This document shows positions 4,066-58,227 of a DNA stretch of 64,000 nucleotides, piece by piece. A model generated the notes under the pieces. It ran no database searches. It was not told the DNA's origin and saw only the letters and a program-made list of their open reading frames with translations. The stretch lies in NCBI GenBank assembly GCA_028583605.1, contig CM053330.1:28904598-28968597 (forward strand), read 5' to 3'. The DNA comes from Dastarcus helophoroides. Lineage: Eukaryota; Arthropoda; Insecta; Coleoptera; Bothrideridae. The position numbers and the translations under genes are program-made. Every line of letters begins with the position of its first letter. Within the stretch, counting starts at the first letter, position 1.

Positions 4066-4345
4066 TACTTGAAATACAAAACTTGTCCCCTGAAATCAAG
4101 AAAGATTACAAAACACAACAAAGGTAGCTCGAACGCGTTTTGACAGCCAAGCTATCATGTTAGAGAGATACTAACACCTAATCCTACAATTAGTATCTCC
4201 CTGAAGATGATAGTTTGGCTGTCGAAACCCGTTAGAGCAACCTTTCCTGTATTTTTCAATCTTTCTTGATTTCAAGGGACAAGTTTCGTATTTCAATTTT
4301 TAAAGATAACCAAGGACCAAGCCGTTTCACAAAAAAAACTATTAT
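4066..4345. repeat. Foldback element of hammerhead family 2 (copy A), nested
   Basis: Imperfect palindrome with arms 4066-4170 and about 4197-4335. Each arm contains an outer segment (CCTTGGTTATC, ACTTGTCCC, AAGAAAGATTA words) and an inner hammerhead-like core. The centre is a second small hairpin (GAGATACTAA...TTAGTATCTC). A direct repeat ACTGTTA flanks it (4059-4065 and 4346-4352). The family recurs at 38462-38694, 45113-45356, 52019-52081 and 54783-54862. The right-arm core is intact (see 4197-4237); the left-arm core is mutated (CUAACAU in place of CUGAAGA). Confidence 0.7.
4197..4237 (+). ncRNA. Putative hammerhead ribozyme, family 2 copy A right arm
   Basis: Core CUGAAGA at 4201-4207, one extra U (4208), helix II 4209-4214 with 4218-4223 (loop UUG), GAAA at 4224-4227, short helix III closing on U4232, and a GUU cleavage site before A4234. 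Helix I pairs 4197-4200 (CUCC) with 4234-4237 (AGAG) with one mismatch next to the core. All invariant core bases are present. Activity is untested. Confidence 0.6.
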
Positions 4346-4594
4346 ACTGTTAGATTCGAACTCAGGATTTGTGAGCGTTAAATTTTATAATGAAAATCGA
4401 AATAGAAAATATTATTAAGTGATTTTTTTTTAATCATAAATAAATCCGAATTTCATTATTTGCCTAAAGTATACAGAAATATTTTGCAATGATATGTTGA
4501 TAATGATGAGATATTGAGCCACATTTGAAAAATATACAAATGTAAATTTTTACTTTATTAATACTATGGAGCTCATAACGATATAATAGACAAT

Positions 4595-4862
4595 GACTTT
4601 CTCGACTACTTATTTGAGACCCAGTTTATTGCAAACGATGGTCCGCACGCGTGGCCGCCGCGCCTCCAAGAGATAAAACACCACTGGAATTCTTCTATGG
4701 GGAACCGTTTAGGAGCAAGTTTTTGCAACGACTAATGTAAGACAAGAATGTTGCTAGGAACAATCGGATGTGCTTAAAAAGGTTACTCAATTCGAAATCT
4801 TAAAATATGCCTTTAAATGCATTGCAACAGGAGACCGTCATTGTTGTTCTTGTTGTAAATTT
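4595..4862 (+). pseudogene. Transposase C-terminal remnant (mariner-superfamily DDE)
   Basis: In one frame, from 4595: DFLDYLFETQF, then DGPHAWPPR, which matches the FLDE-F...GPI-WPPRSPDLTP region of insect DDE transposases. After a frameshift near 4690 the reading resumes with LLWGTV, then QVFATTNV, LKKVTQFEIL and CIATGDRHCC, the usual FLWG...VFAT...TGGRHFEH tail. Two in-frame stops lie in the second segment. It is clearly dead and supplies the identity of the enclosing inverted-repeat element. Confidence 0.7.
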
Positions 4863-5538
4863 GTTGTCAGTTATTTCATTTTCCTATTACTTATTATGAT
4901 TAATTCTTCAAGCTTTTATTGCCTAGTCCTGCTTAATAGAAGAGATGTTTCATTCTTTTTATTTTGAGTTTTATGTAAAATACCTCTGTAACGGTGCAAC
5001 ATTTTTTTATGTACAGAATCCAAAACTGATTAAAAAACATAGAGTTGCTATTTAAAAAAACAGAATATTTTTGAATCAAACAAAAATAATAAAGATCATA
5101 AAATTTCCGTCACCCTGTATCATGAATGTAAAGTCTAATTACGCCATTATAGTCTCCATAATATTCCGTAACTTCAAACTAAATTTCTTTTTTTTCTCAA
5201 ACAATAAAAATGATACAAAAGTGAAAATAACCCTCTTTTCTGTCATTTCCTTTTTGAAAAATTAAAATATCCTTAAAACTATCAAAGGTAGCAATAATTG
5301 TGTATACATAAGCTCACCTTATTTTTTAAAGTAAAATCCAAATAAAATAGATAAAATGGGGGTTGCTATTTGAAATAAGAAAGTTGATGTCTATTCCGGT
5401 ATAACCGGAGGAAGTTGAAAATATTTAAAAAAAATAGTTTAGCTCCGATTAGCTCCATTGACAAAATCAGTTTGCCTGTATAATAAGTGGTGCTCCATAT
5501 AAAGGTAACCCCCCAACTAAAAAAAAAAACACCCGGTA

Positions 5539-8500
5539 CATTAAATTTCAACCTTTTTAAAAATTTCGACTCTTTCTTGAAGATATGAACGTTTCAAAAT
5601 TGTTTTCTTTTCAGTTTCAATTATTTCCATCAAATTGTTGACTTATTTTAAAAACTCCAACTTTTAAAATTCAGGATTTTCTCAAAATTTCGACTTTTTG
5701 TCCAAAACATGACTTTTTAGAAATGTCGACCTTTTTAAGAATTACAATTATTGAAAATTGTGAATTTCAAATTTCCATTTTTCTGTAAAATGTCGACATT
5801 TTGTTAAATTTTGACGCCTTTTCAAAATACTGATTTTTTTGAAAACCATCATTCATAAAAATTTTGGCTTTACTGATTTTTTTCCTTGAAACGACGTTAT
5901 TCAAAATTTTGATTTTCATAAATTTCCACTTTTTTTGAAAGTTTCTAATTTTTTTCAAAATTTCGACTTTTTCTCAGTTTCGGATTTAAAAATTTGAGCC
6001 TTTTTAAAATTTTTATTTTCTCTCAAAATTTTCATTCATTTTCAAAACGACTTTCTAAAAAATTTGTCCTCTTTCTTAAAATATTGATTTCTTTTGAAAA
6101 ATTCTACCTTTTTTAAAAAATTCGCAATTTTTTCTGAAAATATTTACTCTTAAAAATTTAAGACTTTTTGAAAAATTCGATTTTTTGCTTAAATTTTTGA
6201 ATTTTATGAAAATTTTGACCTTTTTCTAAAATAAAATTTTGTATTTTTTTCTGAATATTTCGACGTATTTTCGTCAACAAATTTATATTTTCGACGTTTC
6301 GATCTTTTTTAAACAGTTTGAATTTTTTTAAAAACTTGGATTTTTACCGAAGTTTCAAAAAAAACGTAAATTTTGAACTAACAAAAATTTTCAAAAAAAC
6401 GACATTTAAAAAAATCAAAATTTTCAAAATAATCAAAATTTTTTAAAGAAGTTAAAATGTTTAAAAATCGTCAATTTCTTCAAAAAAAGAGAAGGATTTT
6501 AAATCAACATCGACCAAAAACGTCAAGATTTCAAGAAAAAATTTCAAGAAATGTCAAACTTGTCAAACTTGGTCTTTTACCAAAGCTTTGACTACATTGT
6601 TTGGCTATTTTTATTTTGAAAATTTAGACTTTTATTAAATTTCCATTTAATTTAAAAATTTCGACCCTTTTTAAAATTCACAGTTTTTCCCGAAGTTTAG
6701 ACTCTTTAAAAATTTCGACTTTTTAAAACAATTCGCCTTTTTTCTTGAAATGTTGACGTATTTTCAGTATGTAATTTTTGAAATCCTATTTTTGTTAAAA
6801 AGAATTTGACTTTTCTTTGAAAATCTTGATTCGTTTAAAAATTTTGACTCTGAAAATTTTTATTTATTTTGAAGTTCTTTAAAGACTTTTATAAAAAATT
6901 TACCTTTATTGAATAACCCCATTTGCAGGAAATTTGGATTTTTCACAATTTGGATTTTTTTAGAATTTTGATTTTTTCACAATTTTGATTTTTTAAGATT
7001 CGGCTTTTTTGAAAATTTCGAAATTATTCAAAACTTAGATTTTCGCAGTTTTAATTTTTAAAAAACATTCATTTTTTTAAAGTAAGATTTATTGAATTTC
7101 ACTTAATCTGGAAAATTTTGACACTTCTAAAATTTTTACCATTTCTTGGAAGTTTTTTCTTAAAATTCTGACGTTTTTGGTCTATGTTGATTTAAAAAAA
7201 ACTTTTCTTTTTTTGAAGAATTTGACGTTTTTATTAAACATTTTGACTTCCTTAAAAAATTTTGATTATTTTGAAAATTTGATTTTTTTTAAATGTCGTT
7301 TTTTTGAAAATTTTTGTCCGTTCAAAATTTAGGTTTTTTTTTGGAAATTAGGACTTTTTTTTCAACATTTTGTTCTTTCTTGAAGTATTGGCACTTTTTT
7401 AAGTTTCGAGTTTTTTCAAAGTTACCACTTCTTTGTCTTAAAATTTAAAAAAATTTTGTCTTTCTAAAAAAAATCAGACTTAATTTGAACATCTGGATCT
7501 TTTTTACAATTTTTGCTTCTTCTCAAAGTTCCAACTCTGGAAATTTAAGCGTTGTTTAAAATTTTGACTCTTTTTGAAAATTTTAACATTTTTGTGAAAA
7601 TTTTAACATTTTTAAAAATTCTAACTTTCTGAAATTTCGACATTTTGTCCAAATTTTCACTTTTACAACTTTTTTAAAATTTTATATATTGAAAAATTTT
7701 GATTATTTTTTAAATTGTAACTTCCTTGAAAATATCAACTTTTTAAAATGTCCTCTTTTTAAATTTTCGATGTTTTTAAAATTTCGACGGTTCAAAAATT
7801 TCGTTCTTTTTTTTAAGATTTCGTCTTTTTTTTGTCTTCTATTTACAGTGCTCAAAGGGACGGTGGAACGAATGTATTTAAAAATGATTTCGATTATTTT
7901 AAATTTCCACTGCTTCTCAAAATTTTGACTTTACTAAAAATTGTGACCTATTGAAAATTTCAATTTTTCGAAAGGTTTCACTTTTTTGAATTTCGTCCTT
8001 TTCTTAAAATTTTGATTTTTTTTGTAAAAGTCGCTTTTTCTAAATTTTTTTTTGGTGTTTTTTAAATTTGATAGTTTTGACTTTTTAAATTCTAGATCAT
8101 TTTCGATTTTTAGAATTTTTTTTCACATTTCGAATTTTTCAAAATGTTCAAAACTGTGATAATCTAAACAAAGTCGAATCTTAAAAAATAAAAATTGTGA
8201 AAAAGTCAAAATTGTGAAAAAATCCAGATTGTGAAAAAATACAGATTGTGAAAAAATCCAAATTTCATGAAAATGGAATTATCCAAAAAAGGTAAATTTT
8301 TATAAAAGTCTTCAGAGAACTTCAAAATAAATAAAAATTTTCAAAAAGTCAAAATTTTTAAACGAATCAAGATTTCCGAATTTTTTTCAAAATGTTGACT
8401 TTCAGGATGTTTAATTTTCTTGGAAGTTTCGACTTTTAAAAGTTTAAATTTTAGTCGATTTTCACCTGCAGTAATTTGAAAATTTTAATATTTTTTAAAA

Positions 8501-8613
8501 TAGTTATTTTTTCTTTAAATTTTTTTCAAATTTTTTTAAAATTTAGATTTATTTAGTTGTCATTTAATCTGAAACTATCTAACTTCTTTAACATTTCTTT
8601 TTTTTTTCTTGAA
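5539..8613. repeat. Degenerate AT-rich TTTCGACTTTT-type array
   Basis: About 3 kb of strongly AT-rich, quasi-periodic sequence made of variants of TTTTGAAAATTTCGACTTT, mostly with CGACTTT on the plus strand. Short stretches are inverted and read AAAGTCGAAA. Two pairs of longer inverted duplications are visible (6350-6560 with 7160-7340; 6800-7010 with 8160-8390). All open frames here are low-complexity and I call none of them genes. Confidence 0.8.
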
Positions 8614-8625
8614 GTTCTTGACTTT

Positions 8626-9200
8626 GATAACGAAGGCTTCCACGGCCAGAGTCAGTACAGGATATACTTCTTCCGGGATTGGACCGTGTCAAAGAACTAC
8701 TAAAAGTGTTCGACGTTTCGCCCACCATCGTAGGGGGCTTCTTCAGGAACAAAGAAAGAAAAATAGATGAAATGAGGGACTATGCAAAAAAGAAAAATAA
8801 AAATAAAAGGCCAATTTCAAAGCATCAGAGCACGGTAACTCAGTATGTCCACCATACCAGAGGCGAAACTCTTCTGAATTGAAAATTGGTACGAAGGATA
8901 AGAAGAGTTTCGCCTCTGGTATGGTGGACATACTGAGTTACCGTGCTCTTCTGCCTAAACTTTCTTTTGTACCAAGTTTAAATTCAGAAGAGTTTCGCCT
9001 CTGGTATGGTGGACATACTAAGTTACCGTGCTCTTCTGTCTAGACTTTCTTATCCTTCGTACCAATTTTCAATTCAGAAGAGTTTCGCCTTTGGTATGGT
9101 GGACATACTGAGTTACCGTGCTCTGATGCTTTGAAATTGGTCTTTTATTTTTATTTTTCTTTTTTGCATAGTCCCTCATTTCATCTATTTTTCTTTCTTT
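8626..9200. repeat. Foldback element of hammerhead family 1 (copy a) with internal tandem copies
   Basis: The left arm starts GATAACGAAGGCTTCC and holds the hammerhead motif (minus strand). It continues as GAACAAAGAAAG... to an inner segment containing GAGCACGGTAACTCAG. That inner segment then appears inverted and repeated three times (about 8902, 8987 and 9077, period about 85-90 bp). The right arm ends just after TTTCTTTCTTTG, so it lacks the ribozyme and outer end. A 12-bp direct repeat GTTCTTGACTTT flanks the unit (8614-8625 and 9201-9212), although its last part resembles the local array. The same arm occurs at 33323-33668 and 56502-56590. Confidence 0.75.
8707..8751 (-). ncRNA. Putative hammerhead ribozyme, family 1 copy a
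   Basis: On the minus strand: helix I 5' strand UGUUC (8751-8747); core CUGAAGA (8746-8740); one extra A (8739); helix II GCCC (8738-8735) with GGGC (8723-8720); GAAA (8719-8716); then CGUC. A15.1-U16.1 and C-G form a minimal or intermolecular helix III, since ACGU is self-complementary. Predicted cleavage is after C8712. Helix I closes with GAACA (8711-8707), five Watson-Crick pairs with UGUUC. Every conserved core position is present. Confidence 0.75.
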
Positions 9201-17661: not shown

Positions 17662-18418
17662 TTTTGGCAAAAGTAGTGTACCAAGGTGGATTCTGGAGCA
17701 CAAAAAGGCGGGAAATTCAAAAAAGTGGTGGGGGTACCGACATTTAAAGATTTTATTTGTTCTAAAGTATCTTTACTTTTACGAAACATTCTATTGTTTA
17801 TCTACAGGTGTCCAGCTTCTTGTCTAACAGTTGGTTTGACTTGTACAACTACTTGTCTAACAGTTGCTTTCAGTTGTACAACTACTTGTCTAGGAGTTAG
17901 TTTGACTTGTCTAACAGTTGGTTTGAGTTGTAACCATTACTTATTTAACAGTTGATTTGAGTTGTCAACTACTTGTCTAGCAGTTGGTTTCAGTTGTACA
18001 ACTACTTGTCTAGGAGTTGGTTTGAATTGTCTAGCAGTTGGTTTGAGCTGTACAACTACTTGTCTAGGAGTTCGTGTTACTTGCCTAGCAGTTGGTTTGA
18101 GTTGTACAACTACTTGTCTAACAGTTAGACAAGTAGTGATAAAACTGAAAACAAATCAAACCAACTCCTAGACAAGTAGTTATACAACTGAAAGCAACTG
18201 TTAGACAAGTAGTTGTACAAATCAAACCAACTATTAGACAAGTCAAACCAACTGCTAGACAAGAAGCTGGACACCTGTAGATAAACAATAGAATGTTTGG
18301 TAAAAGTAAAGATATTTTAGAACGAATAAAATCTTTAAGTGTCGGTACCCCCTCCACCTTTTTGAATTTGCCGCCTTTTTGTGGTCCAGAAATCCCCTTG
18401 GTACACACTACTGGCAAA
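17662..18418. mobile_element. Foldback element with 33/21-bp tandem repeats in its arms
   Basis: Outer arms: 17662-17815, with TACCAAGG...GGGGGTACCGACA...CTACAGGTGTCCAGCTTC, are repeated inverted at 18245-18418. The middle (about 17817-18240) is a minisatellite of 33-bp units (TGTCTARCAGTTGG...TACAACTACT) alternating with 21-bp units (TGTCTAGGAGTTNG...), a 54-bp higher-order unit. It turns inverted at about 18125. This architecture, long inverted ends made partly of tandem repeats, resembles Drosophila FB elements; homology is not claimed. Confidence 0.8.
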
Positions 18419-21335: not shown

Positions 21336-21565
21336 TCGAGATTATGATATGCAGGTAGAATACAACCTATAATCCAAATTTATGCAGCCCTCTAGGCGTG
21401 TATAGTGCGAATCATATAATAAAAGGTTAACTGAACCACCAACAGTTGAAACACAAACACCAAGCGAAGCGGTTGCTCTCTAGGAGAAAAAGGTACCCCA
21501 GAAGACACGGATTTTAATGCACAGACCAATAGGTTTGAAAATTTATTAGATTCAAAAGATTGGAA

Positions 21566-21608
21566 ACTAAAGACCAGTTTCGATCTTGTAAGATCTCGTC
21601 AGTTTGGT
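21566..21608 (-). ncRNA. Putative hammerhead ribozyme, family 3 left arm
   Basis: Minus strand: helix I ACCAAA (21608-21603) with UUUAGU (21571-21566), one mismatch; core CUGACGA (21602-21596); helix II GAUCU (21595-21591), loop UACA, AGAUC (21586-21582); GAAA (21581-21578); helix III A-U and C-G around UG; GUC with cleavage after C21572. All core residues are consensus, including the G-C closing pair of helix II. Confidence 0.8.
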
Positions 21609-21632
21609 ATATTCAACTCGAATGCTAACAAA

Positions 21633-24240
21633 TAGGGATGCACACGATAAATCGATGTATCAAAAACATCGATGTTTTCGTTTCGATGTTCGATATTTTT
21701 GTATCGATACTTTCGTTCCGATGTATCGACGGTATCGCTACATTTTTTCGATGTATCGATTGGTGAAAGAAGTTCAAAAAAAATCTCAATTTTTCGACGG
21801 TCAAAATTTATCTAAATACCAGCTTATGTCACCCGATTCCATTCACTATTTCTCAGCCACTACTTTAATTTGTTTAAATAAATTGATTTTTTAAATATCG
21901 TTATTTTTAAAATTTCTGCCTTTTAAAATTTAGATTTTTTCTGGAATTTCAACTTTTAAAATTTCGACTTTTAAAATTTCGCCTCTTTTCAAACTTTCGA
22001 CTTTACCGAAAATTTTAACTTTTTTCAAAATTTTTCCCACTTCACTTTAATGAAAATTACTATTTTTTTACGGTTATTTAACCTGTCAAACAGTTAATCT
22101 TTTCGAAAAAAATGACTTTTTAAACATTTTAATTTTTTAATTTAAAATTTCTGAAATTTCAACTTCTCTGGAATGATCAGAATGTCGAGTTTTGTTGATG
22201 AATTTTTCTATAATTCCGACTTCATTTGCAAATTTTGAATGTTTTAATAAAATTTCAACTCTTTTAAAACTTTCGCTTAAAAATTTAACCTTTTTGAAAA
22301 TTTCGACTTTTCTGATAATTTCGACTTTTTTTAAAGCTTTTTCTTTAAAAAATTCTAGATTTTTTGGCAAGCTTAGCACCGAAGATTCTTTAAAATGTTC
22401 AATTTTTTAAAAAATTGTATTTCATTCAAAATTACGATTGCATTTCAAAATTTAAATTTTTTTCTGAAAATTTCGATTTCTTGTCAAAATTTGGGTTTTT
22501 TAAGACTTTCAATTTTCAAAATTTTTTAAATGTCTTTTCAAAAAAATTGTTTTCTTTTAATCTTGGCTTTTAAAAATGTAATTTTATTTTCCAAGATTTT
22601 GACACTTTTGAAAACCCCGATTTTTTCAAAACTCCAACTTTTTTCCAAATTTTGACTCCTAAAATTCTTACTTTTTCTAAACTTTAGTTTCTTTAAATTT
22701 TGACTTTTCCAAAAATTTTACCCTTTTCTGAAAACTTTGGATTTTTTGAAAATTTCTTTAAAATTTCGACTTGATTCGATTCGAGTTGTTTTGACATTTT
22801 GATCTATTTTGCAAAATTTCTAATTTTTTCCATACTTTCGCCGGTTTTAAAATATTCGGTTCGTTTTATAAATTTCAACTTCATCAGTGTCAACTTTTAT
22901 AGCTTTTAAAAAAAATCGAATTTTTGGAAAATTTCAATGTTTTTTCAAAATTCCAATCTTTTTGAAAATATTCAATCAAAAATTGACTCTTTAAAATAAA
23001 GACATTTATCTTTTTTTTTAAATTTTAACTAATCTAAGTTTTTCAACACTTCTACTTGCTTCGTTTCTAGTTTTTTTGGAAGTTTAGAATCCTTTGATAA
23101 TTTTTACTTTTCTTCAATATTTGGGCTCTTCAAAAATTTCGGCTTTTTTAAAAATTTAACTGTTAATGCTTCACCTTTTTAAAAAAATAAAAATTTTAAA
23201 GAAATTTTTGAGAAATGTCAAAATCTTTAAAATAGCTAAAATTTTCAATAAAATAAATCGGTCGAAATTCTGAAAAAAAATTTGTATTAAAAAACCCAAA
23301 TATAAAAAAATGGAGAAATTTTAAAAAATATTTGAATATATAAAAATGTTTCCAAAAATATTTTGAAAAAGGTTTTCAAAAAACTCAAATTTTAAAAATT
23401 TATAAAAGTTTTCTAAAATAGTCAACAATTTTAAAAGGTACTTAAAATGTTGAAAATAAGTGTAAAAATTTAAAATTAAGTCAAAATTTCGAAATTTTTA
23501 TAAACATTTAAAATTTTCAAAAAAAAACCAAGGGTTTTAAAAAAAGTAACGAGTTTTAAGGAAAGTTTGAATTTGCCTAAAAGTTGGTAAAAAAAGTCTG
23601 GAATTGAAAAAAGTAATCGAAAATTTGAAATAAAATGTCAAAATTATCAGAAGTTGAGATTTTCAAAAAAAATCGAATTTTTCGAAAAAATTGAAATATC
23701 TAACATTTCAAAAAAGTCGAAACTTTTAAAGGTTTAAAAGTTGAAGTCGACATTTAAAAAAAATAAAAATTTTGAGAAAAATCGCTATTTGCGGAAAAGT
23801 GCAAATTCTGGAAAAAAAGGTCCTAATTTTGGAATAAAATCGTAAAATAATTTCAACTTTTCAAAAAGTTTAAAGCCTAAAAACTGAAATTTTAATAAAT
23901 AGTTGCAATTTTTGAAGTTTAATAAAAAAAAAACGAATAATTTAAACAGAAGCAGAAGTTTTTTTATTAAATGATGTCGGATTTTGAAAAAGTCAAAAAT
24001 TTTGAATATTCGAAAATTTGAAATAAGTTAAAATTTGTATTAAAAAGCAGGAATTTAAAAAAAAAAGAAAAATATGAGAGGCCCGTCTCGCTGGTTGAGA
24101 ACTTTTGCTGTATCGTATTGTATTTATATGATATATCGAATATCGAATAAATTTGTCAATTGTCGAATCATATCGATATATCTTTTTCGATACATCAGTT
24201 GAGTACAGTATCCATGTTTTAAAAATTTTGAGCATCCTTA
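21633..24240. mobile_element. hAT-type element carrying an AT-rich array
   Basis: Ends TAGGGATGC (21633) and the inverse TAAGGATGC (ending 24240), flanked by an exact 8-bp duplication CTAACAAA (21625-21632 and 24241-24248), the hAT signature. The termini are followed by ATCGAT-rich hairpins (21650-21760 and 24110-24200). The 2.1-kb interior (about 21880-24060) is the degenerate TTTCGACTTT array, T-rich in the first half and A-rich in the second. No transposase recognised. It is inserted in the family 3 foldback element, interrupting its left arm. Confidence 0.8.
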
Positions 24241-24440
24241 CTAACAAATGTTCCGACAAGTAAATATTAAAGAATCAACGGATGTCAAGCGTGTGACTTT
24301 CAACACTACCTCCACCTATTGCTCCATAGAGAAACTATGGCCATCGCCAACAATGTCGTATGCAAGTAGAATACAACCGCTTGACATCCGTTGATTCTTT
24401 AGTACTTGTCGGAACATTTGTTAGCATTCGAGTTGAATAT

Positions 24441-24483
24441 ACCAAGCTGACGAGATCTAACAAGATCGAAACCGGTCTTTGGT
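24441..24483 (+). ncRNA. Putative hammerhead ribozyme, family 3 right arm (best candidate)
   Basis: Helix I ACCAAG (24441-24446) with UUUGGU (24478-24483), six pairs including one G-U; core CUGACGA (24447-24453); helix II GAUCU (24454-24458), loop AACA, AGAUC (24463-24467), five perfect pairs; GAAA (24468-24471); ACCGGU (24471-24476), self-complementary, for helix III; GUC with cleavage after C24477. Complete consensus. The short helix III suggests better activity as a dimer, as described for PLE hammerheads. Confidence 0.85.
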
Positions 24484-24549
24484 TATCAAACTTCGAATCT
24501 AATCAATGTTCAAACCTATTGGTATGTGCATTAGAATCGAGATTATGAT

Positions 24550-25875: not shown

Positions 25876-26250
25876 TGTAACGCAATATAAATAGATGAAA
25901 TAGGATTTAGAATAGAATTGTAGAATTAAGTAAATAAAAAAAGTTTCTAGAAGGTTCTGATAAGGGGAAAGCGGCCGCGATAACGAAACAAACGGCAGAT
26001 AAGCGTTCCAGAAATTTCGGCATTCGATAAGCCTTATCTGCCGAAAATTCTGGAAGCCACGGGCCGAAACTATAAAAAGGCGGTCAGTTTTCCCTCGAGT
26101 CAGTCAGTTAGAAGCAAGTGCTATAAGTTGGTTAGCAATTAGTAAATAATTAGTGAGTTACTGTTCAGTTGAAGTGTGCCGAGTTAATTCAGTAATAAAG
26201 TGGGTATAATCTATCACGTGTATCAATTCGAACCGGTAACGCACGTAACA
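25876..26250 (+). mobile_element. Solo LTR, copy 1
   Basis: Starts TGTAACG and ends CGTAACA (TG...CA). It carries promoter-like and polyadenylation signals: TATAAAAAGG (26071-26080), an AGTCAGTCAGTTAG start region near 26100 and AATAAA (26194-26199). An internal stem (CGGCAGATAAG ... CTTATCTGCCG, about 25990-26031) and a GCGGCCGC site are conserved in the other two copies (42461-42821 and about 58560-58896). No internal retroelement sequence adjoins. Lineage not assigned; no clear target duplication. Confidence 0.75.
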
Positions 26251-29099: not shown

Positions 29100-29437
29100 A
29101 CTTTTTTACAAGGGCACGAGCCCGGGGCCCTCGGTTTGATGGGGGCTTCAAGTGTCGACTGCGTTGTTTGCATGGAAAAAGAGTAGCTTAATTTTTAGTT
29201 CAAACTTAACAACGCAACGCCCGAACTCAATAATAGTAGTGAACTATCCATATAGGCAATATAGGCACCTTTCATAACTATTAAACTTCATTAACAATTA
29301 AAACAATAACAGCTGCAGTTGTTTTAATCCTTAATAGTTATGAATATTAAAAAATTCCACATAGTAAGAATTAGAAATGTCAATATAGGCAAATATCTAT
29401 GAGCCCAATGACGCTTAGGGGCCTCGTGGCCTATAAA
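29100..29437. mobile_element. Possible small DNA element with GGCACGAGCCC-type ends
   Basis: Left CAAGGGCACGAGCCCGGGG (near 29108) and, inverted at the right, TAGGCCACGAGGCCCCT (near 29435) look like diverged terminal inverted repeats. No target duplication was convincing. It contains the palindrome 29273-29342. Confidence 0.3.
29273..29342. repeat. Short palindrome sharing one arm with 39824-39866
   Basis: Inverted arms CATAACTATTAA...AATTAAAACAA and TTGTTTTAATC...TTAATAGTTATG around CAGCTGCAG. The outer side (GTGGAATT-TTTAATATTCA, inverted) and arm reappear at about 39824-39866, beside the PLE. Confidence 0.55.
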
Positions 29438-33310: not shown

Positions 33311-33370
33311 ATTTTAAAATTCAGGATATATTTCTTCCGGGATTGGACCGTGTCAAAGAACTACTAAAAG

Positions 33371-33414
33371 TGTTCGATGTTTCGCCCACTGTCGTAAAGG
33401 CTTCTTCAGGAACA
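33371..33414 (-). ncRNA. Putative hammerhead ribozyme, family 1 copy b left arm
   Basis: Minus strand: UGUUC (33414-33410), CUGAAGA (33409-33403), extra A, helix II GCCU (33401-33398) with GGGC (33387-33384), GAAA (33383-33380), then CAUC with cleavage after C33376, and GAACA (33375-33371) pairing with UGUUC. The core is intact. The G-to-A change at 33378 weakens helix III. Confidence 0.6.
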
Positions 33415-33546
33415 AAGAAACAATAAATGAAAAATAAAATACTACGAAATATACAAAAATGAAAAATAAAATAGACCAATTTCATTTTTTTTCATTTTTT
33501 ATTTTTGTATATTTCCTTGTATTTTATTTTTCATTTATTGTTTCTT

Positions 33547-33591
33547 TGTTCCCGAAGAAGCCCCCTACGATGGTGGGCGAAACGTCGAACA
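33547..33591 (+). ncRNA. Hammerhead-like motif, family 1 copy b right arm (U4 to C)
   Basis: UGUUC (33547-33551), CCGAAGA (33552-33558) instead of CUGAAGA, extra A, helix II GCCC with GGGC (33575-33578), GAAA (33579-33582), CGUC with the predicted site after C33586, GAACA (33587-33591). Helices are as in copy a. The lost U4 is expected to reduce or abolish cleavage. Confidence 0.55.
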
Positions 33592-33680
33592 CTTTTAATA
33601 GACAAGGTCCAATCCCGAAAGAAGTATATCCTGTACTGACTCTGGCCGTGGAAGCCTTCGTTATCATAATTTTAAAATTC

Positions 33681-38461: not shown

Positions 38462-38694
38462 TGGTGGAAACGGACTGGTCCCTGGTTATCTTCAAAAATT
38501 GTAATGCAGAACTTGTCTCCTGAAACTAAGAAAGATTAAAAAAAACATAACAAAGTTTGCTCTAACGCGTTTCGACAGCCAAGCTGTTATCTTCTCTCTG
38601 AATATGATAGCTTGGCTGTTCAAACGCGTTAGAGAAAACTTTGTTGTGTTTTTTAATCTTTCTTGCTTTCAGGGGACAAGTTCTGTTTTACAAT
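38462..38694. repeat. Foldback element of hammerhead family 2 (copy B)
   Basis: Arms 38465-38590 and 38600-38694, with GGACTGGTCC, CTTGTCTCCTGAAAC and GCTCTAACGCGTTTCGACAG in the left arm and the inverse at the right. A direct repeat TTTCCGTCMGATGTT of 15 bp with one mismatch flanks it (38447-38461 and 38695-38709). Both hammerhead cores are mutated. Confidence 0.7.
38592..38646 (+). ncRNA. Decayed hammerhead, family 2 copy B right arm
   Basis: Helix I is the best of the family: UUCUCU (38592-38597) with AGAGAA (38641-38646), six perfect pairs. The core reads CUGAAUA (G8 lost) and CAAA replaces GAAA (G12 lost), so cleavage is not expected. It confirms the helix I register of this family. Confidence 0.45.
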
Positions 38695-38709: not shown

Positions 38710-39823
38710 GCCGGCAATGTTACCTATACGCTTGCAAAATTAGACCCGTGCCAGTTCTGAACCCGAGATATTCAATATCAAAATTATGATTTTTAAACTG
38801 TAAGGTGCAGGCGAAGAATGTTTTCGAAGAAATTTTAATTTATTACGGCCAAACCTCCTATAAATTTTGACAAAAAAGCTAATCTATTATGTAGGATATT
38901 GTGAATAAAATAGTAAAATATGAAGATTACTAGCGGTACCGTTTGCGATGTTTCATTCCGCACGTTAGGGAAACATCTTGAAGTAATGGCAACATCGCAG
39001 CTCCACTACTTTTGACGAAAGCTCCGACGTGTAAATTTTTTGCCTAAGCAGGGCAATGTTGTTTGCTCAGAAAATCTACAGCAAAACGGTTGGAGATTTG
39101 TATTATTGTATCCACGCGACAGTCTATGCTAAAAATCGGGTAGTGCTTGCTATAAGCAGAGCAAAAAAAAGTATAGATATATTGAATACATATTCTCAAA
39201 AAGTCAAAGATATAATTGATAGTTTGCAAAAAAACGTAACAATAAAGTAAAATTACAATTTTGAACTTGTTGTAAAAAGGCGATTCATCGTCATCTATCC
39301 TTGCTTCCGCATCCTACTCGCGGTGCTCTCAAAAACTTTTAGCTACTATTACTAGGTACTGGTGAAGTATTTTAAGACATACAAAACAGTGGGAGATTGC
39401 TTGGCACAGGAAGGACTTCTGTGCATTGAGACTTTTTTTTTCTGCAGAACTTCCAATGTATGTAATTCGTTACAGTCTATGCTAAAAATCGAGTAGTGTT
39501 CGCTAGAATCAGAATAGGTCCAACGTTTCAAAAACTTTTAGCTACGATTAATGCCGGTCAACTACCTTAATGCATACAAAACAAATGGAGACAGCTTGGC
39601 ATAGAGAGGACTTGGAATTCATTACCGGAATTTTGTCCGACAATTACCAACCTATACGTAAAGGTGGTTCATCACTATCTATCTTTATTTCGTATCCTAC
39701 TCGCATTACTTCTAAGGCAGAATAGGGTTGTTCTTTGTAAGTAGATTGTACATAAAAAAAGGCCTAAATAAGGTCAAAAATCTGACTTAAAACATCGAAT
39801 TTTTTCCAACCCTTACTTCGTGG
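38710..39823. repeat. Diverged, rearranged local repeats
   Basis: Three blocks occur twice in different order and spacing: CAGTCTATGCTAAAAATCG (39119 and 39474), TCAAAAACTTTTAGCTAC (39328 and 39528), and AAAGG-G-TTCATC-TCATCT...CATCCTACTCGC (39277 and 39661). This is a rearranged duplication, perhaps part of an unrecognised element. The 64-codon frame at 39056-39250 overlaps the first copy; I do not call it a gene. Confidence 0.45.
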
Positions 39824-39909
39824 AATTCTTTAATATTCATAACTATTAAACTTTATTAACGAATAAAACGCAACAGATATTAAAAATTCCAAAATTTTTC
39901 GATAAATAT

Positions 39910-39965
39910 TTGCTAATACCGGACCAGGTTTCGCATTACTGCATCATCGGCGGTCATACCAGCAA
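39910..39965 (-). ncRNA. Decayed PLE hammerhead ribozyme downstream of the endonuclease frame
   Basis: Minus strand: outer helix I UUGCU (39965-39961) with AGCAA (39914-39910); inner helix I ACCG (39954-39951) with CGGU (39921-39918), separated by internal loops GGUAUG and AUU; core CCGAUGA (39950-39944; U4 to C); extra U; helix II GCA-GUAA-UGC (39942-39933); GAAA (39932-39929); minimal helix III; GUC with predicted cleavage after 39922. The position, 3' of a GIY-YIG frame, is where PLEs are known to place type I hammerheads. Confidence 0.65.
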
Positions 39966-40068
39966 TTTGTTCAGCCGTTCTTATGCTAACAAGTTCCATG
40001 GATCACAGACTCGTACGAATATTCCGTCTAATCCGAATTCTCATCCAAAGCTTCAATTAGAGATGTGT

Positions 40069-40942
40069 TCAGAAGATCAAGCTGTTCATAAGTGTAAGTG
40101 TAGATTGTAAATATTTGTGAATTTCTATGGCTTCCAAGAAATTAAGTTTTTTAATCTTGTTACAAATATGTAATACTTCTACTGTGTTCGCGCATGTAAG
40201 TTTATGTTGTGTTTCTAATGGATGCTTTGCAAAATTTGATCTTTCTGGATGTTGATTTCTGAGGGCAGCAAGATGTTCGCTGTACCTAATGTGAAAATTA
40301 CGTGATGTTTGACCTATGTAGACATCATTACAGTCAGAGTAATTCAATTTATAAAAATCAGATTTACCAGGTCGTGGAGTTTTTTCTTTTGCGTTAAAAA
40401 TAATGTTACTTAACGAATTATATGATTTAAAGCTAGGTGTTGCTTGGGATGTATGAAAAATTATATTACTGATCTTTTTCGAGATGTTTCCAAAATATGT
40501 AATACTAAAATAGTCTGTTTTTGTGTTTGGTTGTTTAGGAAAAATAGAATTAACAGATAATTTGTGTTCTTTTTTAGATATTAATCTATTAATTGTGTTT
40601 TCAGAATATCCATTGCTATAAGCTATTTGTTTAATTATCTTAATTTCTCGACTAAATTTTTCTTCATTCACTGGTACCATATAAGCTCTATTTATCATTG
40701 GTTTGTATGCTGCCAATTTGTGTGAAATTGAATGTAAGGAATTATTTGGAATTGTAACGTCTGTATGCGTAGGTTTTCTATAAATTGAAAATTTTAATTC
40801 ATCTGAGTTCCTTAATATGGTTAAATCCAGAAAATTTATTTTATTTTCATTTTCAATTTCTGCAGTAAATTTAATATTTGAATGTAGACCATTAATGTAT
40901 TATAAAAATATATTTAATTCCCTGAAAATGTCAATTATTTGA
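40069..40942 (-). pseudogene. Penelope-like element: C-terminal RT and GIY-YIG endonuclease, 5'-truncated
   Basis: The open part (40069-40716) encodes 215 residues. Extending upstream to about 40942 adds, in the same frame, the reverse transcriptase tail with NFLDLTI and IYRKPTHTD, then SLHSISHKLAAY and NRAYMVPV, all typical of PLEs. A stop (TAA) interrupts the upstream part near 40904. The GIY-YIG endonuclease follows at about residues 118-150: FYKLNYSDCNDVYIGQTSR, then the conserved Arg in HIRYSEH, and LEAIEIHKYL with the catalytic-region Glu. The GIY half is degenerate (DFY). PLEs retrotranspose by target-primed reverse transcription and often lack 5' ends, as here. The core RT domain is missing, so this copy is dead. 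Confidence 0.85.
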
Positions 40943-42460: not shown

Positions 42461-42821
42461 TGTTACGGGCTTTATCGGTTCGAATTAATTAACACGTGAA
42501 TTGAATAATACCCATTTAATTACCAAACTTAACTCGGAACATTACAACTGAATAATTAACTCACTTATTGACTTCTAACTACTAACTCACTAACTACACT
42601 GGCTTCTGACTGATTCTAACTGACTCGAGGGAAAGCTGACCGCCTTATATAGTTTTGGCTCCCAGGTTCTAGAAGTTTTTGGCAGATAAGACTTATCGTT
42701 TGCCGAAATTTCTGGAACGCTTATCTGCCGTTTGCTTCGTTATCGCGGCCGCTTTCCCCTTATCAAATCTTTCTAGAAACTTTTCTTATGTACTAAATTC
42801 TACAATTTACATTTCGTTACA
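42461..42821 (-). mobile_element. Solo LTR, copy 2
   Basis: Inverse orientation to copy 1: starts TGTAACG at 42821 and ends CGTAACA at 42461. It shares the GCGGCCGC site, the GGCAGATAAG-type stem, a TATA-like box (near 42648) and the TGACTCGAGG and CTAACTACTAACTC region. No internal sequence adjoins and its orientation is opposite to copy 1, so it is a separate insertion. Confidence 0.75.
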
Positions 42822-45104: not shown

Positions 45105-45112
45105 ATGTGATT

Positions 45113-45356
45113 ATGATTTTTTTGATGGAATGGACTGGTCCTTGGTTATCTTCAAACATTGAAATAAAGAACTTGTCCTGTGAAACCAAGAAAGATTAAA
45201 AAACACAACAAAAGTTGCTCTAACGCGTTTCGACAGCCAAGCTGTCATCTTCAGAGAGAAACTGAAGATGACAGCTTGGGTGTCAAAACGCGTTAGAGCA
45301 ACCTTTGCTGTGTTTTTTAATCTTTTTTGATTTCAGGGGACAAGTTCTGTGTTTTA
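45113..45356. repeat. Foldback element of hammerhead family 2 (copy C)
   Basis: Arms 45125-45258 and 45262-45356: GGACTGGTCCTTGG, ACTTGTCC and GTTGCTCTAACGCGTTTCG at the left, the inverse at the right. Flanked by ATGTGATT at 45105-45112 and 45357-45364. The left arm holds an intact hammerhead (minus strand). The right-arm core has G12 changed to A and lacks the CUCU helix I strand. Confidence 0.75.
45218..45258 (-). ncRNA. Putative hammerhead ribozyme, family 2 copy C left arm
   Basis: Minus strand: helix I CUCU (45258-45255) with AGAG (45221-45218); core CUGAAGA (45254-45248); extra U; helix II GACAGC (45246-45241), loop UUG, GCUGUC (45237-45232), six perfect pairs; GAAA (45231-45228); ACGCGU, self-complementary, for helix III; GUU with cleavage after U45222. 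Complete core. An extra base between A9 and helix II occurs in some natural hammerheads. Confidence 0.7.
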
Positions 45357-45499
45357 ATGTGATTTCGACTATATCGCGAGTTAGTTCGGAACAAGGACGT
45401 TATTTTACCAATTCTACAATATTGTAAGTAGGTAAATACTACTGCACATATTTGGCTCATATAATATTGCCGCGCTTTCGTCTGTGTGAAAGGAAGAGA

Positions 45500-51859: not shown

Positions 51860-52330
51860 TCTAGACTTAAAGTGGGTCGCATAAAAGTCTAGGCCAGCAT
51901 TTAAACTACATTTTTTGGACCCATTGTTCCATTCCCGTGATTTAGGTGTCCTTGGTCATTGGTCATTCATTCAGCCATCCAATTTTATGGAAAAACTGAA
52001 GAAGTTCTCTTGGATGTGGAAGCTTGGCTATCGAAACGCGTTAGAGCAATATTTCTTGGTTTCAGCCCCTTCCTCCAAAATTTGGATGTGCTTCTCTCAA
52101 ACTGGACACATTAGGCCAGGAGACCTTCAGAATGATCCACTGATGCCCATGATGTGAAGACGTTCATTTAATTGACAGTGATTTGCCCAAATCCCTACCA
52201 GTTTTCTGTGGCTGACTGTTGAAAGTTGTAGGCATACTCGTGGCCTTTCCCTGCACGACATTTCAATGAATGCCTGGGTCTGTCGGCATGCATGACGGTC
52301 ATTGGCCTTGGCGTTTACGATAGTTATGAT
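51860..52330 (-). mobile_element. LINE 3' fragment (same family as 56591-58207), interrupted
   Basis: Read on the minus strand it matches the 3' portion of the plus-strand LINE at 57780-58200: the region of TTTACGATA, GACAGTG, CCAAATCCCTAC and GTAGGCATA blocks, and at its end GGTGTCCTTGG, GGGCCCATTG-like and GGCCAGCA words. It is frameshifted and has no open frame of its own; the 80-codon plus-strand frame at 51915-52157 is antisense to it. It carries a 63-bp insertion at 52019-52081 bordered by TTGGATGTG. Confidence 0.7.
52019..52081 (+). repeat. 5'-truncated family 2 arm inserted in the LINE fragment (copy E)
   Basis: The insert begins in hammerhead helix II (GAAGCTTGGCTATCGAAACG), continues CGTTAGAGCAA and TTGGTTTCAG as in the family 2 right arm, and is flanked by an exact 9-bp direct repeat TTGGATGTG (52010-52018 and 52082-52090). 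The uninterrupted LINE has one copy of this site (TTGGATGCG). Truncation inside the ribozyme plus a target duplication suggests an RNA intermediate. Confidence 0.65.
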
Positions 52331-53449: not shown

Positions 53450-53925
53450 GGTAGTTTAAATGATTTAAATTTTTCCTAAATTTTGATTTTGAAAAATGGC
53501 CTTTGAAAAATATTTGAAATGATGAATAAATAATAATGATTATTTAAAGAAAATAAATACATTTTAAAGATTTCTTTTCCAGAAAATAATGCATCCAATA
53601 AAAAAAGAATTTCCACGTTAAATTTGAAATTTCGACATTAAAAGTCAAAATTTCAAGTACCTAATTAAACATTTTAATTTCAAAAGTGAAGTACTATGAA
53701 AAAGTGGCAATTTCAAGTAAAAACTCTGGGTGTCTAAGAAGATTGTTGTTTGCAAAGTTCAAGTTTTTTCTCACAATATCTTTTTCGACGTTTGACCTTG
53801 AAATCGAAATTTTAAGCGAAAATTGAAAATTTCGAGAGAGCACTAAAAAATTACATATTTTTCTTTAAATATCTCCTTTTTTTAATATTCCACTGTTTGC
53901 AGAAATTTTAAGTGTAAAATTAGTG
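53450..53925. repeat. AT-rich array
   Basis: Array-like words; no gene seen. Confidence 0.45.
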
Positions 53926-54310: not shown

Positions 54311-54782
54311 GACGGACGCTGCGGATCAACTACATCATTTCCACCAAACTGTAAAAAATATATGGAGCGAAATAAAAAGCTACGGTGTACATAAAACTCA
54401 GTTATTCGACCGGTTTTATGGGGGCAAAATATCGTCCGGATGGGCCGCCAACCACGTTAATATGCACCCTACAGGATAACTTGGGATGTGGTCACTTAAT
54501 CTTTTTTTTATTATTTAATTTTCTTTTTTTAGAGATGTCGAAATTAGATAGCAGATTTATCGAAATTTTGAAATTGAATTAAATTTTTAATTATTACGTC
54601 GAAATTTAACGATTACATAGAAATTTTAGGTAAAAAGGCAAAGTAGAAAAATGCGCACAAAAAAAATAGATTTTGTAAAGAAAAAAATACGTGTTGATAT
54701 TTCGAGGTTAATTTGAGTAGCGGGTTTTATTTGATTCGACACAGTAATTTTTCTTGCTTTCATTCTACATGCAGAAGTAATT

Positions 54783-54862
54783 TTGGTGGAACGGACTGGT
54801 CCTTGGTGATTTTTAAAAATTGAAATACAAATCTTGTTCTCTGAAACCAAGAAAGATTTAAA
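54783..54862 (+). repeat. Truncated family 2 foldback arm (copy D)
   Basis: Outer arm only: GGTGGAACGGACTGGTCC, CTTGGTGATTTTTAAA and CTGAAACCAAGAAAGATT, ending before the ribozyme part. No inverted partner nearby. Confidence 0.55.
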
Positions 54863-56490
54863 ATCACAACCCCTTACCATAAAAAACATAAAGTAAAAAA
54901 CAAAACAATAACAGACTAGTTTTTTTTAATAATGAGTTATGGATATAAGTATAAATTTTCAGAGTCCATATGAGTAAAAGAAAAGAAGCTGACAAAATAA
55001 AACTAAGAAATCGTAAAGTAAAAAAAAAACCAAGAGCAGTAAAATACAACATAATTTAAAAAAGAAACGGCAAACCAGACAAAAAACTATCAAAACCAAA
55101 AATCAGTAAAATAAATAAAACAAAAACACGTTTGTGAATTCTTTCTCCTACTACATCTTCATAATTTGTGTAAAATTCCAAATATCCAGGCCACATTAAT
55201 ATGTGCCCCTTTTGGGGATAAATTTTTAAAATCGACAACATCCGTTTTCAAGTAGTTTATCAAACATACATAAACTTTTGGATTATTGGAAGGAAGTTGC
55301 CACAAGCAACGGCTGTGAATCGGGATCCCCAATTAAATAAATATCGAGGTTGGTAAAAAAATAATTTGTTATGACTAAGCTATCAAATTGTTTTATATTT
55401 AGAAACATATTTTTAGAAGTAAATTGAACACGATGTGCATATGAAGAATCGTTCATAAATATAGAACAATTTGATGGAGTGGAAACGAACTCTCTATCAA
55501 ACTGAAATAAGACAAGTTAATAACATTGGCCCAAATATTCTTTCAAAGGTATTTACGTCTCTTACATAATACATTGGGCGATTTTCTCTTTGAGCTCCTT
55601 CAGACCGGAACATGTTCCTTTGTTTTATTCATAACATTAATTCTTCAGCGCTGAAAAATCCACTGGGGCTTATTTCACAAAGCTTCAAAAGCATTTTCTG
55701 AATCTATTTGATTTGATCTATACGGCAAAGCGAAATATACGCCCACATCGCTCGTAAACGATAGTTGCTGGGCAAAGTGACAAAATCAAGGAAATAATTA
55801 TGTTTTCAGTTTAAAAGTAATAGAAGACAAACGTAATTTTTCTCATTTTTCTGTTTAGATTAAAACATTAGAAATAATACTCGCTCTATAGGGCCAAGAA
55901 AATGAGTATCATTTATTATCTATGTTGTAGGCGTTCTTTTTTATCTTATTTCAGCTTAAGGATAAAGCGTATCCATTAAGACATCATTTAAGCCAGATAG
56001 GATGTTTGATCGATCAATAGATTGGAACTAATTTGGCGGATCGTGCTGACAGTAAAATATAAGTTCTCGAGGGAGATGCCAAATAAAAACGCTCGCATGG
56101 GGGATTTTGATTTAAAAATGATGAGACTTAATTACAAAATTGACCTTCTTTCCTCACCACAACTACAAAGTTTTTAGACAGAAATTTTTTTTTCGCAAAG
56201 TTCGTGGAATTACGTAAAATTACGTAACTTCTTCCATTTTCTGGTAGTAGTGGTTGTATCTCTAGTAATTTTTATTGACACAATTTTATCCTTAAAACTG
56301 TAAATTTTTGAGTTAGGTCGAAATTTTCTGGGTAAAGATGATAAAGTTTGTAAAATGATGTAAAAGGCCCATCACATGCATCATAAACTGATTTTCCGAT
56401 TTTTTTTCCAACAGCAGTCACATCTTTTGCATTAAAAAGTGATTTCTCTATCCCTTATTGATCGTCTTGCATTTCTCTAGAAATTTTAAT
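54863..56490. other. Intronic sequence without recognised features
   Basis: AT-rich at 54870-55120, then more complex. Short frames on both strands are unconvincing. Confidence 0.4.
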
Positions 56491-56501
56491 GTTATACTTG
56501 A

Positions 56502-58227
56502 CTATGATAACGAAGGCTTCCACGGCCAGAGTCAGTACAGGATATACTTCTTTCGGGATTCGACCGTGTCAAAGAACTACTAAAAGTGTTAGATGGATGA
56601 CCTTATCCGAAAACTCAATGACCGGGGTCTCTATACAATTGGCTACGCAGATGATATAACCATTCTGCTTTCAGGTAAACACAAGGGAGTACTTTTCGAG
56701 TTAATGCCCTATATAGTCGAGAAATGGTGTAAAGAACATTCCCTAGCAGCAAACCCTGCAAAGACGGAAATGATTCTTTTGACGAATAAGAGGAAATTAG
56801 CACGACTAAAATTTCCTAAACTCATGGGAACCCAGCTCGGTTTGTCAAATCGAGTGAAATACCTTGGTATTAAATTTGACAGCAAACTGAACAGGAAGTA
56901 CCACATTTTAAATAAATTAAACAAAGCTTACAAGATCTTCTGGGAATGCAGTGGGGCCATCGGGAGGTCTTGGGGGTTATCCCCTAAGATGACCTTTTGG
57001 CTATACACGGCAGTCATCAGGCCAATTGTAAGCTACGGAATTATAGTTTGGTGGCCAATGACAAAGTGCACCACTATAAAACAAAAGCTAAATCACATCC
57101 AGAGACTAGCATGTCTGGCAGTGATAGGAGCAATGAAATAGGTTAGGTAAAATGGTGGGTCACCGGCGCATAATGGAGGGGGTGCTCCAAAAGGCACCTA
57201 TCCTGGGTGCGCCGATGGACCATCTACCGGTGAAATATAACTTCACAAAATCCTACCGTATAAAAATGGATTAACTACAAGCAAGGATACCAGACGTAAG
57301 TATATACACGAATAGATCGAAAACAAATACGGGCACCGAAACAGGAACCTTCTCGGAAGACCTGAACCTAAATGTAAGTATTAAGTTAGATAAATACTCA
57401 ACAATCTTCTAAGCGGAGATGTTGGAATTTTATATAGCGCCGAACAAATGACGCAACTGAACAATACAGAAAAATATATCCAAATAAAGACGGACAGCCA
57501 GGCAGCCCTTAAGCCCCTGAGGAATGTGAAAACAAACTCAGTGCTGGTATGGAACTGCCACCTAGCTTTAGAACTTCTATCACAAGAGAATGCAATTGAT
57601 CTAATATGGATTAAAGGACATTCTGGGAAAGAGGGAAACGAACGCGCTGACAAACTGGCGAGGAAGGGTTCGGAGTTACAATTCGTTGGACCAGAACCAA
57701 CCCTTTCCCTGAAAGATCAACCGTAACATCCCTACTTAACGAAGAAATTTATCGTAAACACAAAGCCATATGGGCATCAATAACAACATACCGACAAACT
57801 CACGCATTCATTAGAATGCCGTGCAGGAAAAGAGTAAAACTATGCCTACAACTCTGAAGGAATAATCTCAGGAAACTTGTAGGGATTTGGACAGGTCACT
57901 GTCGATTAAACAAAGAGCTCCACAGAATGGAAATTATAAACGACCCGAGTTGTAGAGGGTGTTTAGAAGAAGATGAGAGTGTCGAACACGTGATGTGTCA
58001 CTGCCCAGCACTAGCATCAATCAGAGGATCCACGCTGGTAGGCTTCTGAGAGAGGCGCATCCAAGGGACGTTCCTCAGTTTCTCAACAATGTTGGGTGAC
58101 TGAATGAAAGACCAAGGACACCTCAATCATGGGGATAGCACAATGGGCCCGAAAAGGGTGGCCTAAGTGCTGGCCTAAACTTTAGGCAACCCACAACGAA
58201 TCCAGAATCCCGGAAGAAGTATATCCT
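56502..58227 (+). mobile_element. Composite: family 1 foldback ends enclosing a LINE RT/RNase H segment
   Basis: Left arm 56506-56590 is the outer part of the family 1 arm (GATAACGAAGGCTTCC...TAAAAGTGTT) and stops one base short of the predicted ribozyme cleavage site. The right end 58208-58229 is the inverse of part of that arm (CCGGAAGAAGTATATCCTGT). An 11-bp direct repeat GTTATACTTGA flanks the whole (56491-56501 and 58228-58238, overlapping the last bases). Between the arms lies a 1.6-kb LINE fragment. One insertion event of a chimeric unit is the simplest reading. Confidence 0.65.
56591..58207 (+). pseudogene. LINE ORF2 fragment: reverse transcriptase, RNase H and zinc finger (R1/I/Loa-like)
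   Basis: Open from 56593 to 57141 (182 residues), starting in mid-RT: GYADDITILL holds the catalytic YADD (residues 18-21), followed by VKYLGIKFD, then WGLSPKMTFWLYTAVIRP, VSYGIIVWW and IQRLACLAVIGAM, a typical non-LTR RT thumb. The same frame reopens at 57448 with RNase H: TDSQAAL, then IWIKGHSGKEGNERADKLAR (catalytic His and Asp). The first RNase H motif at 57305-57315 reads YTNRSK where TDGS is expected, and a stop precedes AEM. Near 57950 CRGC...EHVMCHCPAL is the C-terminal zinc finger. Stops and frameshifts make it dead. 5' end missing. An RNase H after RT fits the I, Loa and some R1 lineages. Confidence 0.85.

Follow-up and report, generated by a model that had tools for sequence, protein, structure and literature searches.

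Hammerhead motifs in three foldback families of a Dastarcus helophoroides locus and their probable relation to Penelope-like elements

A 64,000-nucleotide stretch of the Dastarcus helophoroides genome (the window) holds three families of foldback elements with unrelated arm sequences, at the positions of the original prediction, and hammerhead ribozyme motifs lie in their inverted arms. Which type of mobile element produces such an arrangement is the question addressed here. The families are probably short, decayed insertions of three families of Penelope-like elements (PLEs), reduced to the element ends (pseudo-LTR and ORF start).

Foldback families and their hammerhead motifs

The arms are called near or far according to how far past the predicted cleavage point they end. 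The family 1 element at 8626-9200 (12-bp flanking repeat GTTCTTGACTTT) contains nested inner inverted repeats; its left, far arm (8626-8760) carries an intact hammerhead on the minus strand (core 8740-8746) and its right arm ends just short of the hammerhead core. A 12-bp repeat also flanks the family 1 element at 33323-33668, whose left arm is near (core 33403-33409, minus strand) and whose right arm is far (core 33552-33558, plus strand, one core change), and the one at 56502-58226, which has no hammerhead motif. The left, far arm of the latter halts ~1 nt from the cleavage point, while its right, near arm of ~20-24 nt adjoins a LINE fragment situated between the arms. Three short elements of family 2 share one build and measure 233-272 bp; their arms join close to the 5' edge of the hammerhead. 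The element at 4070-4341 (flanking repeat of 7 bp, or 12 bp with one mismatch) has a near left arm whose core is lost and a far right arm with core 4201-4207 on the plus strand and imperfect helices. That at 38462-38694 (15-bp repeat with one mismatch) has a far left and a near right arm whose cores are damaged or cut, and that at 45113-45356 (8-bp repeat) combines a far left arm bearing an intact hammerhead (core 45248-45254, minus strand) with a near right arm (core 45262-45268, plus strand) in which GAA is changed. The family is completed by a plus-strand fragment at 52021-52062, which retains only a piece of the motif and adjoins an older LINE copy, and by the downstream half of a far arm at 54781-54870 (minus strand), which lacks the hammerhead and comprises nothing but sequence 3' of the motif. 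The family 3 element (21349-24536; 13-bp flanking repeat) has a long left arm (core 21596-21602, minus strand) and a near right arm (core 24447-24453, plus strand). Its length of 3.2 kb is explained by a 2.6 kb insertion (21634-24240) that has a 9-bp flanking repeat of its own and ends that we take to be hAT-like.

The predicted motif order (CUGANGA, hairpin, GAAA, self-complementary segment and UH, read outward) is found, with flanks able to pair as helix I at the motif sites, but not in every copy. A strict hammerhead descriptor identified four sites on both strands of the 64 kb (24447+, 45254-, 21602-, 8746-), all of them within the predicted elements and with all three families represented. 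The type I hammerhead core and three helices are present at these four sites, stem III being a loopless palindrome. Sixty order-1 Markov windows gave a mean of 0.05 strict matches (maximum 1). A similar descriptor passes 3 of the 12 core+GAAA sites of the window, one per family, and only 1, a weak one, of the 647 found in 353 viral and prokaryotic loci. A chance origin of the motif is set aside because of the Markov controls and of this low rate among unrelated core+GAAA sites. The controls of a laxer one-mismatch scan yielded 0.4 matches per window (0.1 at a total score of at least 10); one control reached 15.5, above the window best of 13.5, and the window has three sites scoring at least 11.

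The Rfam check, for which hits to hammerhead models had been anticipated, gave no match in the window at the gathering score and one below it, Hammerhead_HH9 at 24428-24501(+) (35.4 bits for a gathering score of 52; E 3.3e-5), which makes family 3 the sole one with Rfam support. There is no Rfam match for family 1 in 8600-8800. For family 2, the region 45110-45360 has 16 matches, of which none is a hammerhead. Rfam miRNA matches at the foldbacks were rejected: they fall far short of their gathering scores and resemble ordinary hairpins. Eleven arms reach the motif, of which six keep all core letters and four pass the strict descriptor. The family 2 core is no better kept than the rest of the arm among the window copies (7/66 versus 34/492 cells changed, p 0.31). 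Between the two arms of family 3, 0 of 12 core positions and 13 of the 111 others differ, numbers too small to count. The hammerhead observation itself is real, though confirmed only in part, as the motif is absent from some copies.

Arm ends, flanking repeats and the relation to Penelope-like elements

Target-site repeats of 7-15 bp flank all seven elements, in two cases with a mismatch or with no more than 7 exact base pairs; note that the element ends were first placed by eye, favouring repeat detection, and that the random control did not include that choice. Counted from the predicted cleavage point, near arms end at 53, 62, 64, 62 and 59 nt; the right end of 56502-58226 lies within ~2 nt of where the near arm of 33323-33668 ends. 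The far arms of families 1 and 2 end at 82, 90, 108, 102 and 109 nt, while that of family 3 reaches 223 nt. Each of the six scorable elements, drawn from three families, pairs a near with a far end (8626-9200, whose right arm ends before the core, is left out of this count). The gap between them is 29-47 nt in the five scorable elements of families 1 and 2, resembling the PLE tail of 30-40 bp on one pseudo-LTR, and 164 nt in family 3, where it is not tail-like. Flanking repeats of such variable length, arm lengths that differ in a set way and a motif recurring in three unrelated arms make it hardly credible that the elements are DNA-transposon foldbacks or MITEs with hammerheads as chance occurrences or passengers, even though other inverted repeats abound in the window (88 pairs reach 40 nt or more, 25 of which are listed).

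A frame of 34 codons starts at an ATG in stem II in the left arm of 8626-9200 (8627L), and one of 42 codons does so in the left arm of 45113-45356. Elsewhere in families 1 and 2, several arms contain stops or have lost the frame, and the family 3 arms have no start frame in stem II. These features can be accommodated if reverse transcription of each arm began within PLE RNA, at a point downstream of the minimal type I hammerhead located at the junction of pseudo-LTR and ORF start. Priming on each of the two cut target strands would produce the two arms of one insertion, with the RNA 3' ends outward and the upstream ends meeting centrally, as head-to-head inverted pseudo-LTRs. One arm would start from the near site and the other from a farther one, which in families 1 and 2 would account for the PLE 'tail'; the 7-15 bp repeat would result from repair. 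Template switching may have contributed, and the intact ancestors presumably had ribozyme activity. An alternative to two-strand priming, self-priming on antisense RNA as proposed in PMC3846280, is possible. The divergence of family 2 arms (0.142 within elements, 3 pairs; 0.158 between elements, 12 pairs) does not decide between one template and two, nor would it decide on self-priming.

The LINE sequence of 56502-58226 (plus strand; reverse transcriptase at 56593-57141, RNase H at 57394-57726) would have been trapped between the arms. It could also point to family 1 being a LINE-mobilised SINE-like element sharing its 3' end with that LINE, whose reverse transcriptase and RNase H adjoin the ~20-24 nt common to the arm. 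This is very improbable, however: the element at 33323-33668 has the same near end and no LINE, families 2 and 3 show the same build without one, and the older LINE copy (51872-52290) has no family 1 arm match.

The relation of the families to PLEs is further suggested by a PLE remnant on the minus strand of the same window (40069-40899), which spans the end of a reverse transcriptase and a GIY-YIG endonuclease-type region. It has 41 relatives; GIY-YIG is matched in 16 of 19 aligned sequences and RVT_1 in 10 of 19 (E up to 1). Just downstream of its frame lies a degenerate hammerhead-like motif with one core change (39902-39967, minus strand), for which a search of 301 bases gave an HH9 score of 19.0 bits and E 0.028. 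On its own this motif does not exceed chance expectation at the scale of the window (simulated windows average 0.23 at that score). Several observations count against assigning the families to PLEs. No arm in the window adjoins a PLE ORF (RT/GIY-YIG), and the ends of the remnant itself fall outside the three arm families. The far end of family 3 is not tail-sized and its arms lack the stem II start frame. Frames are interrupted or lost in several arms of families 1 and 2, 8626-9200 is unscorable and the family 2 core decays like the rest.

The lack of an ORF-joined arm and the uniform build of the three short family 2 elements would suit separate non-autonomous foldback satellites, retrozyme-like and with PLE-type ends, moved in trans by PLE proteins, as had been predicted; PLEs are named as candidate movers of retrozymes in the available part of PMC7229834. 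We regard such satellites as unlikely. The retrozymes described in that part are direct tandem repeats rather than inverted ones, abortive PLE insertions account for the same short forms, and an ORF-start frame is kept in one arm each of families 1 and 2. The predicted PLE link is retained on the strength of tail-like double ends, target-site repeats, the stem II frame of those two arms and the PLE remnant. A satellite class is possible but not needed, since head-to-head inverted pseudo-LTRs are the typical form of PLE insertions according to the accessible text of PMC3846280.

Comparison with described elements

That typical form, as given in the same partial text, comprises head-to-head inverted pseudo-LTRs, one optional 31-bp tail and 8-10 bp TSDs, and foreign sequence between pseudo-LTRs is on record (PMC3846280). 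The GIY-YIG Penelope of Adineta vaga shares with the present families the inverted arms, the one-sided tail, short target-site repeats (8-10 bp in that element) and the trapped sequence; its ORF starts in the pseudo-LTR, which would fit the frames kept in two arms here. The families differ from it by consisting of ends only, with no ORF-joined arm, by occurring as three families in one region of another animal genome, and by arms that carry hammerheads, which the consulted portion of that description does not mention (PMC3846280). The Poseidon element PAc of Anolis is comparable in its hammerhead at the ORF start, its ORF beginning in stem II and its two reverse-transcription start sites. Both strands are extended, and reverse transcription starts mainly 111-118 nt into the ORF; as the hammerhead is cut at 26, the main starts lie 85-92 nt past the cut (PMC11167929). 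In that study, cleavage was found to be unnecessary for insertion in vitro. PAc was studied as direct tandem repeats and its activity was assayed, whereas the present families are known from sequence (PMC11167929).

In PLEs and Terminons, minimal hammerheads resemble those found here in their type I layout and in a very short or missing stem III, but they are described in tandem in the available parts of PMC7761336 and PMC6155905, and here they lie in inverted arms, several of them damaged. Metazoan non-LTR retrozymes, too, occur in low-GC animal DNA as small repeats that are non-coding and carry type I hammerheads; in the portion of PMC7229834 at hand they form direct tandem repeats, mostly with canonical hammerheads, and circular RNAs, in contrast to the inverted arms, two end sites and minimal stem III of the window. 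The retrozyme trait, type I hammerheads in direct tandem repeats of 150-450 bp, was not found here, the arms being inverted. The arrangement, of which no description had been known at the outset, has for the most part been published: inverted pseudo-LTRs bearing a single tail, foreign sequence trapped between them and the hammerheads of PLEs are all on record (PMC3846280 and PMC11167929).

Searches for exact or near-exact arm patterns in viral contigs gave no match. Looser patterns gave 113, at least 120 and 4 stretches in viral contigs and at least 116 in prokaryote genomes. P0002 revealed no PLE locus in viral contigs, and ARAGORN reported no tRNA genes.

Pairing of the arm ends and folding of transcripts

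What is new is the strict pairing of near and far ends, for which coupled priming on both DNA strands may be the cause. We advance tentatively that PLE integration could be a coupled two-strand reaction using the near RNA site on one cut strand and the far site on the other, which would yield exactly one tail per double-armed insertion. With independent 50:50 choice, near/far pairing in 6/6 elements is expected in 1/64 and in 5/5 with a tail-sized gap in 1/32. On the PLE reading, the puzzling foldbacks can be read as traces of past insertions, whose arm ends would mark the start of reverse transcription on each strand. Near/far pairing across genome copies could test whether inverted pseudo-LTRs form by two-strand priming or by self-priming on antisense RNA, and whether ribozyme-cut RNA ever serves as template. 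The left arm of 56502-58226, halting so close to the cleavage point, is a single case that would fit copying of such RNA.

The expectation that the inverted structure places ribozymes on both strands holds for the DNA, but the foldback is predicted to hide the ribozyme in the full transcript. In the three full foldback transcripts folded, local stem II pairing was 0.0 and the motif lay within a long hairpin. The minimum-energy folds of four lone pieces were not complete hammerheads, local stem II pairing in these pieces being 0.34-0.54.

Termini of the foldback elements and their likeness to Penelope-like elements

Repeats of 7–15 bp flank all seven elements, which are those of family 1 (8626–9200, 33323–33668, 56502–58226), family 2 (4070–4341, 38462–38694 with one mismatch in 15, 45113–45356) and family 3 (21349–24536). 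Following the same order, the longest exact repeat in 21-nt flank windows is 11, 12 and 12 nt, 7, 8 and 8 nt, and 13 nt. Exact repeats of at least 7 nt occur in 5.6% of 1500 random pairs, of at least 8 nt in 1.8% and of at least 12 nt in none. The family 3 element owes its length solely to an insertion inside it; this insertion is flanked by a 9-bp repeat of its own and is taken to be hAT-like from its end motifs.

Arm ends were positioned by the distance from the predicted hammerhead cleavage point to the element end. In each of the six scorable elements one arm is near and the other far (L, left; R, right; numbered by element start). The near ends lie at 53 (33323L), 62 (4070L), 64 (38462R), 62 (45113R) and 59 nt (family 3 R), and the near arm 56502R ends within about 2 nt of the 33323L end position. 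The far ends lie at 82 (33323R, an arm with a 7-nt gap), 90 (56502L), 108 (4070R), 102 (38462L), 109 (45113L) and 223 nt (family 3 L). Element 8626–9200, whose left arm is far (86 nt) and whose right arm halts before the core, was left out of this count.

PMC3846280 describes the end units (pseudo-LTRs) of Penelope-like elements (PLEs) as inverted and mostly head-to-head, one of them at times bearing a 31-bp tail; they contain the first ORF codons, PLE duplications are of 8–10 bp, and solo pseudo-LTRs are found with foreign sequence trapped between them. In PAc both strands are cut and extended, reverse transcription starts from internal sites, mostly 111–118 nt into the ORF, and the hammerhead, whose stem II holds the ORF start, cuts 26 nt into the ORF (PMC11167929). 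By subtraction the PAc start sites lie 85–92 nt past the cut and are bracketed by the far ends of families 1 and 2 (82–109 nt), while the near/far gap of these families (29–47 nt) is close to the 30–40 bp of the PLE tail. An ATG in stem II opens 34 codons in 8626L and 42 codons in 45113L; this start frame is absent in family 3, and other arms show stops or lost frames. We therefore interpret the arms as probable termini of three distinct PLE families that integrated head-to-head, with family 3 the poorest fit.

The observed features would result from priming on both cut target strands: each would copy PLE RNA beginning at an internal site and halt at a variable distance, and the two copies would then join in the middle. 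Self-priming on antisense RNA, as proposed in PMC3846280, is a possible alternative to two-strand priming. No paper with exactly this combination of features was found among the matches listed by a search that covered part of the PLE-hammerhead literature; the component features are already published.

Detection and preservation of the hammerhead motif

A strict descriptor (complete core; at least 3 pairs in both stem II and helix I; self-pairing stem III) identifies four sites in the window (24447+, 45254−, 21602− and 8746−), all within the reported elements, and 0.05 sites per window in 60 Markov controls. A variant descriptor passes 3 of the 12 core+GAAA sites of the window, one in each family, and 1 of 647 in 353 viral and prokaryotic loci that were mostly picked for containing such a core. 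With one core change allowed there are five scoring sites: 33552(+) and 39950(−) are gained and 21602(−) is lost due to a stricter helix I. Controls then yield 0.4 sites per window, or 0.23 when the cutoff is the score of site 39950(−), and a single one, at 15.5, exceeds the window's best of 13.5. The helices of the three families differ in sequence and are all able to pair; their stem III palindromes are ACGU, ACGCGU and ACCGGU.

Rfam was run on the full window, in gathering and permissive mode, and on three short stretches. Among the three families, its hammerhead models recognised only family 3, below threshold: the full window has no match at gathering score, and its sole hammerhead in permissive mode is Hammerhead_HH9 (HH9) at 24428–24501(+), within the family 3 right arm (35.4 bits, E 3.3e-5). 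The family 1 stretch 8600–8800 gave no match and the family 2 stretch 45110–45360 gave 16, none a hammerhead. Reviews present PLE hammerheads as minimal, with helix III weak or absent and dimer cleavage possible (PMC7761336, PMC6155905).

The original observation of the hammerhead motif holds for all three families through their strict-descriptor sites and fails for some of the individual copies. Core letters are all intact in 6 of 11 motif-reaching arms (4070R, 45113L, 8626L, 33323L and both family 3 arms), four of the 11 passing the strict descriptor. No hammerhead is present in element 56502–58226, where the left arm ends beside the cleavage point and a LINE fragment (RVT_1, RNase H) lies between the arms; the incomplete family 2 fragments carry only the arm part downstream of the motif (54781–54870) or a motif piece (52021–52062). 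Family 2 departs from its consensus in 7 of 66 core cells and 34 of 492 other cells (p 0.31), a result that the original note had counted as refuting its reading; in dead insertions such parity is hardly informative in either direction.

Folding of full foldback transcripts gave a local stem II pairing of 0.0 in all three cases (45113 on both strands, 33323 on the plus strand); four lone pieces reached 0.34–0.54, none of their minimum-energy folds being a complete hammerhead. The ribozyme is predicted by these models to be buried within the foldback itself, and its relevance, if any, would be in the parent PLE RNA. The PAc ribozyme is dispensable for insertion in vitro (PMC11167929).

PLE remnant and neighbouring features

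Judged by its relatives, a PLE is present in the window at 40069–40899(−). This frame has 41 relatives among 599 candidates; its alignment with 18 of them (19 sequences) shows GIY-YIG in 16 and RVT_1 in 10 (E up to 1), neither being matched by the window's own copy at E up to 1. A flanking repeat was sought around the remnant and none was found. Directly downstream on the same strand is a hammerhead-like motif (39902–39967(−)) whose core carries one change; HH9 matches it with 19.0 bits (E 0.028, 301 bases searched), and it is a member of none of the three arm families. A small foldback at 29271–29377 has sequence in common with 39803–39869, just downstream of the remnant.

The window is AT-rich (29% GC) and, judged by the exon and transposase fragment given next, probably of animal origin. 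It codes for a diacylglycerol kinase N-terminal exon at 2514–2828(−) (DAG_kinase_N, E 3.9e-11), and the elements may be located in an intron of this gene. A mariner-type transposase fragment is found at 547–873(+) (Transposase_1, E 5.8e-17). Inverted and tandem repeats were searched in the window and the reported elements inspected in sequence. The family 1 element features at 8746–9200 a near-perfect nested inverted repeat (162 nt, 98%) with tandem units of about 90 bp. The 42-nt family 2 fragment sits between the two blocks, about 75% identical, of an older LINE copy (51872–52290, minus strand). A big foldback at 17676–18406, whose inner arms are made up of 33-bp tandem units, is without hammerhead. 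Two 132-nt copies in opposite orientation (25916–26047 and 42676–42807), 92% alike, are separated by 16.6 kb.
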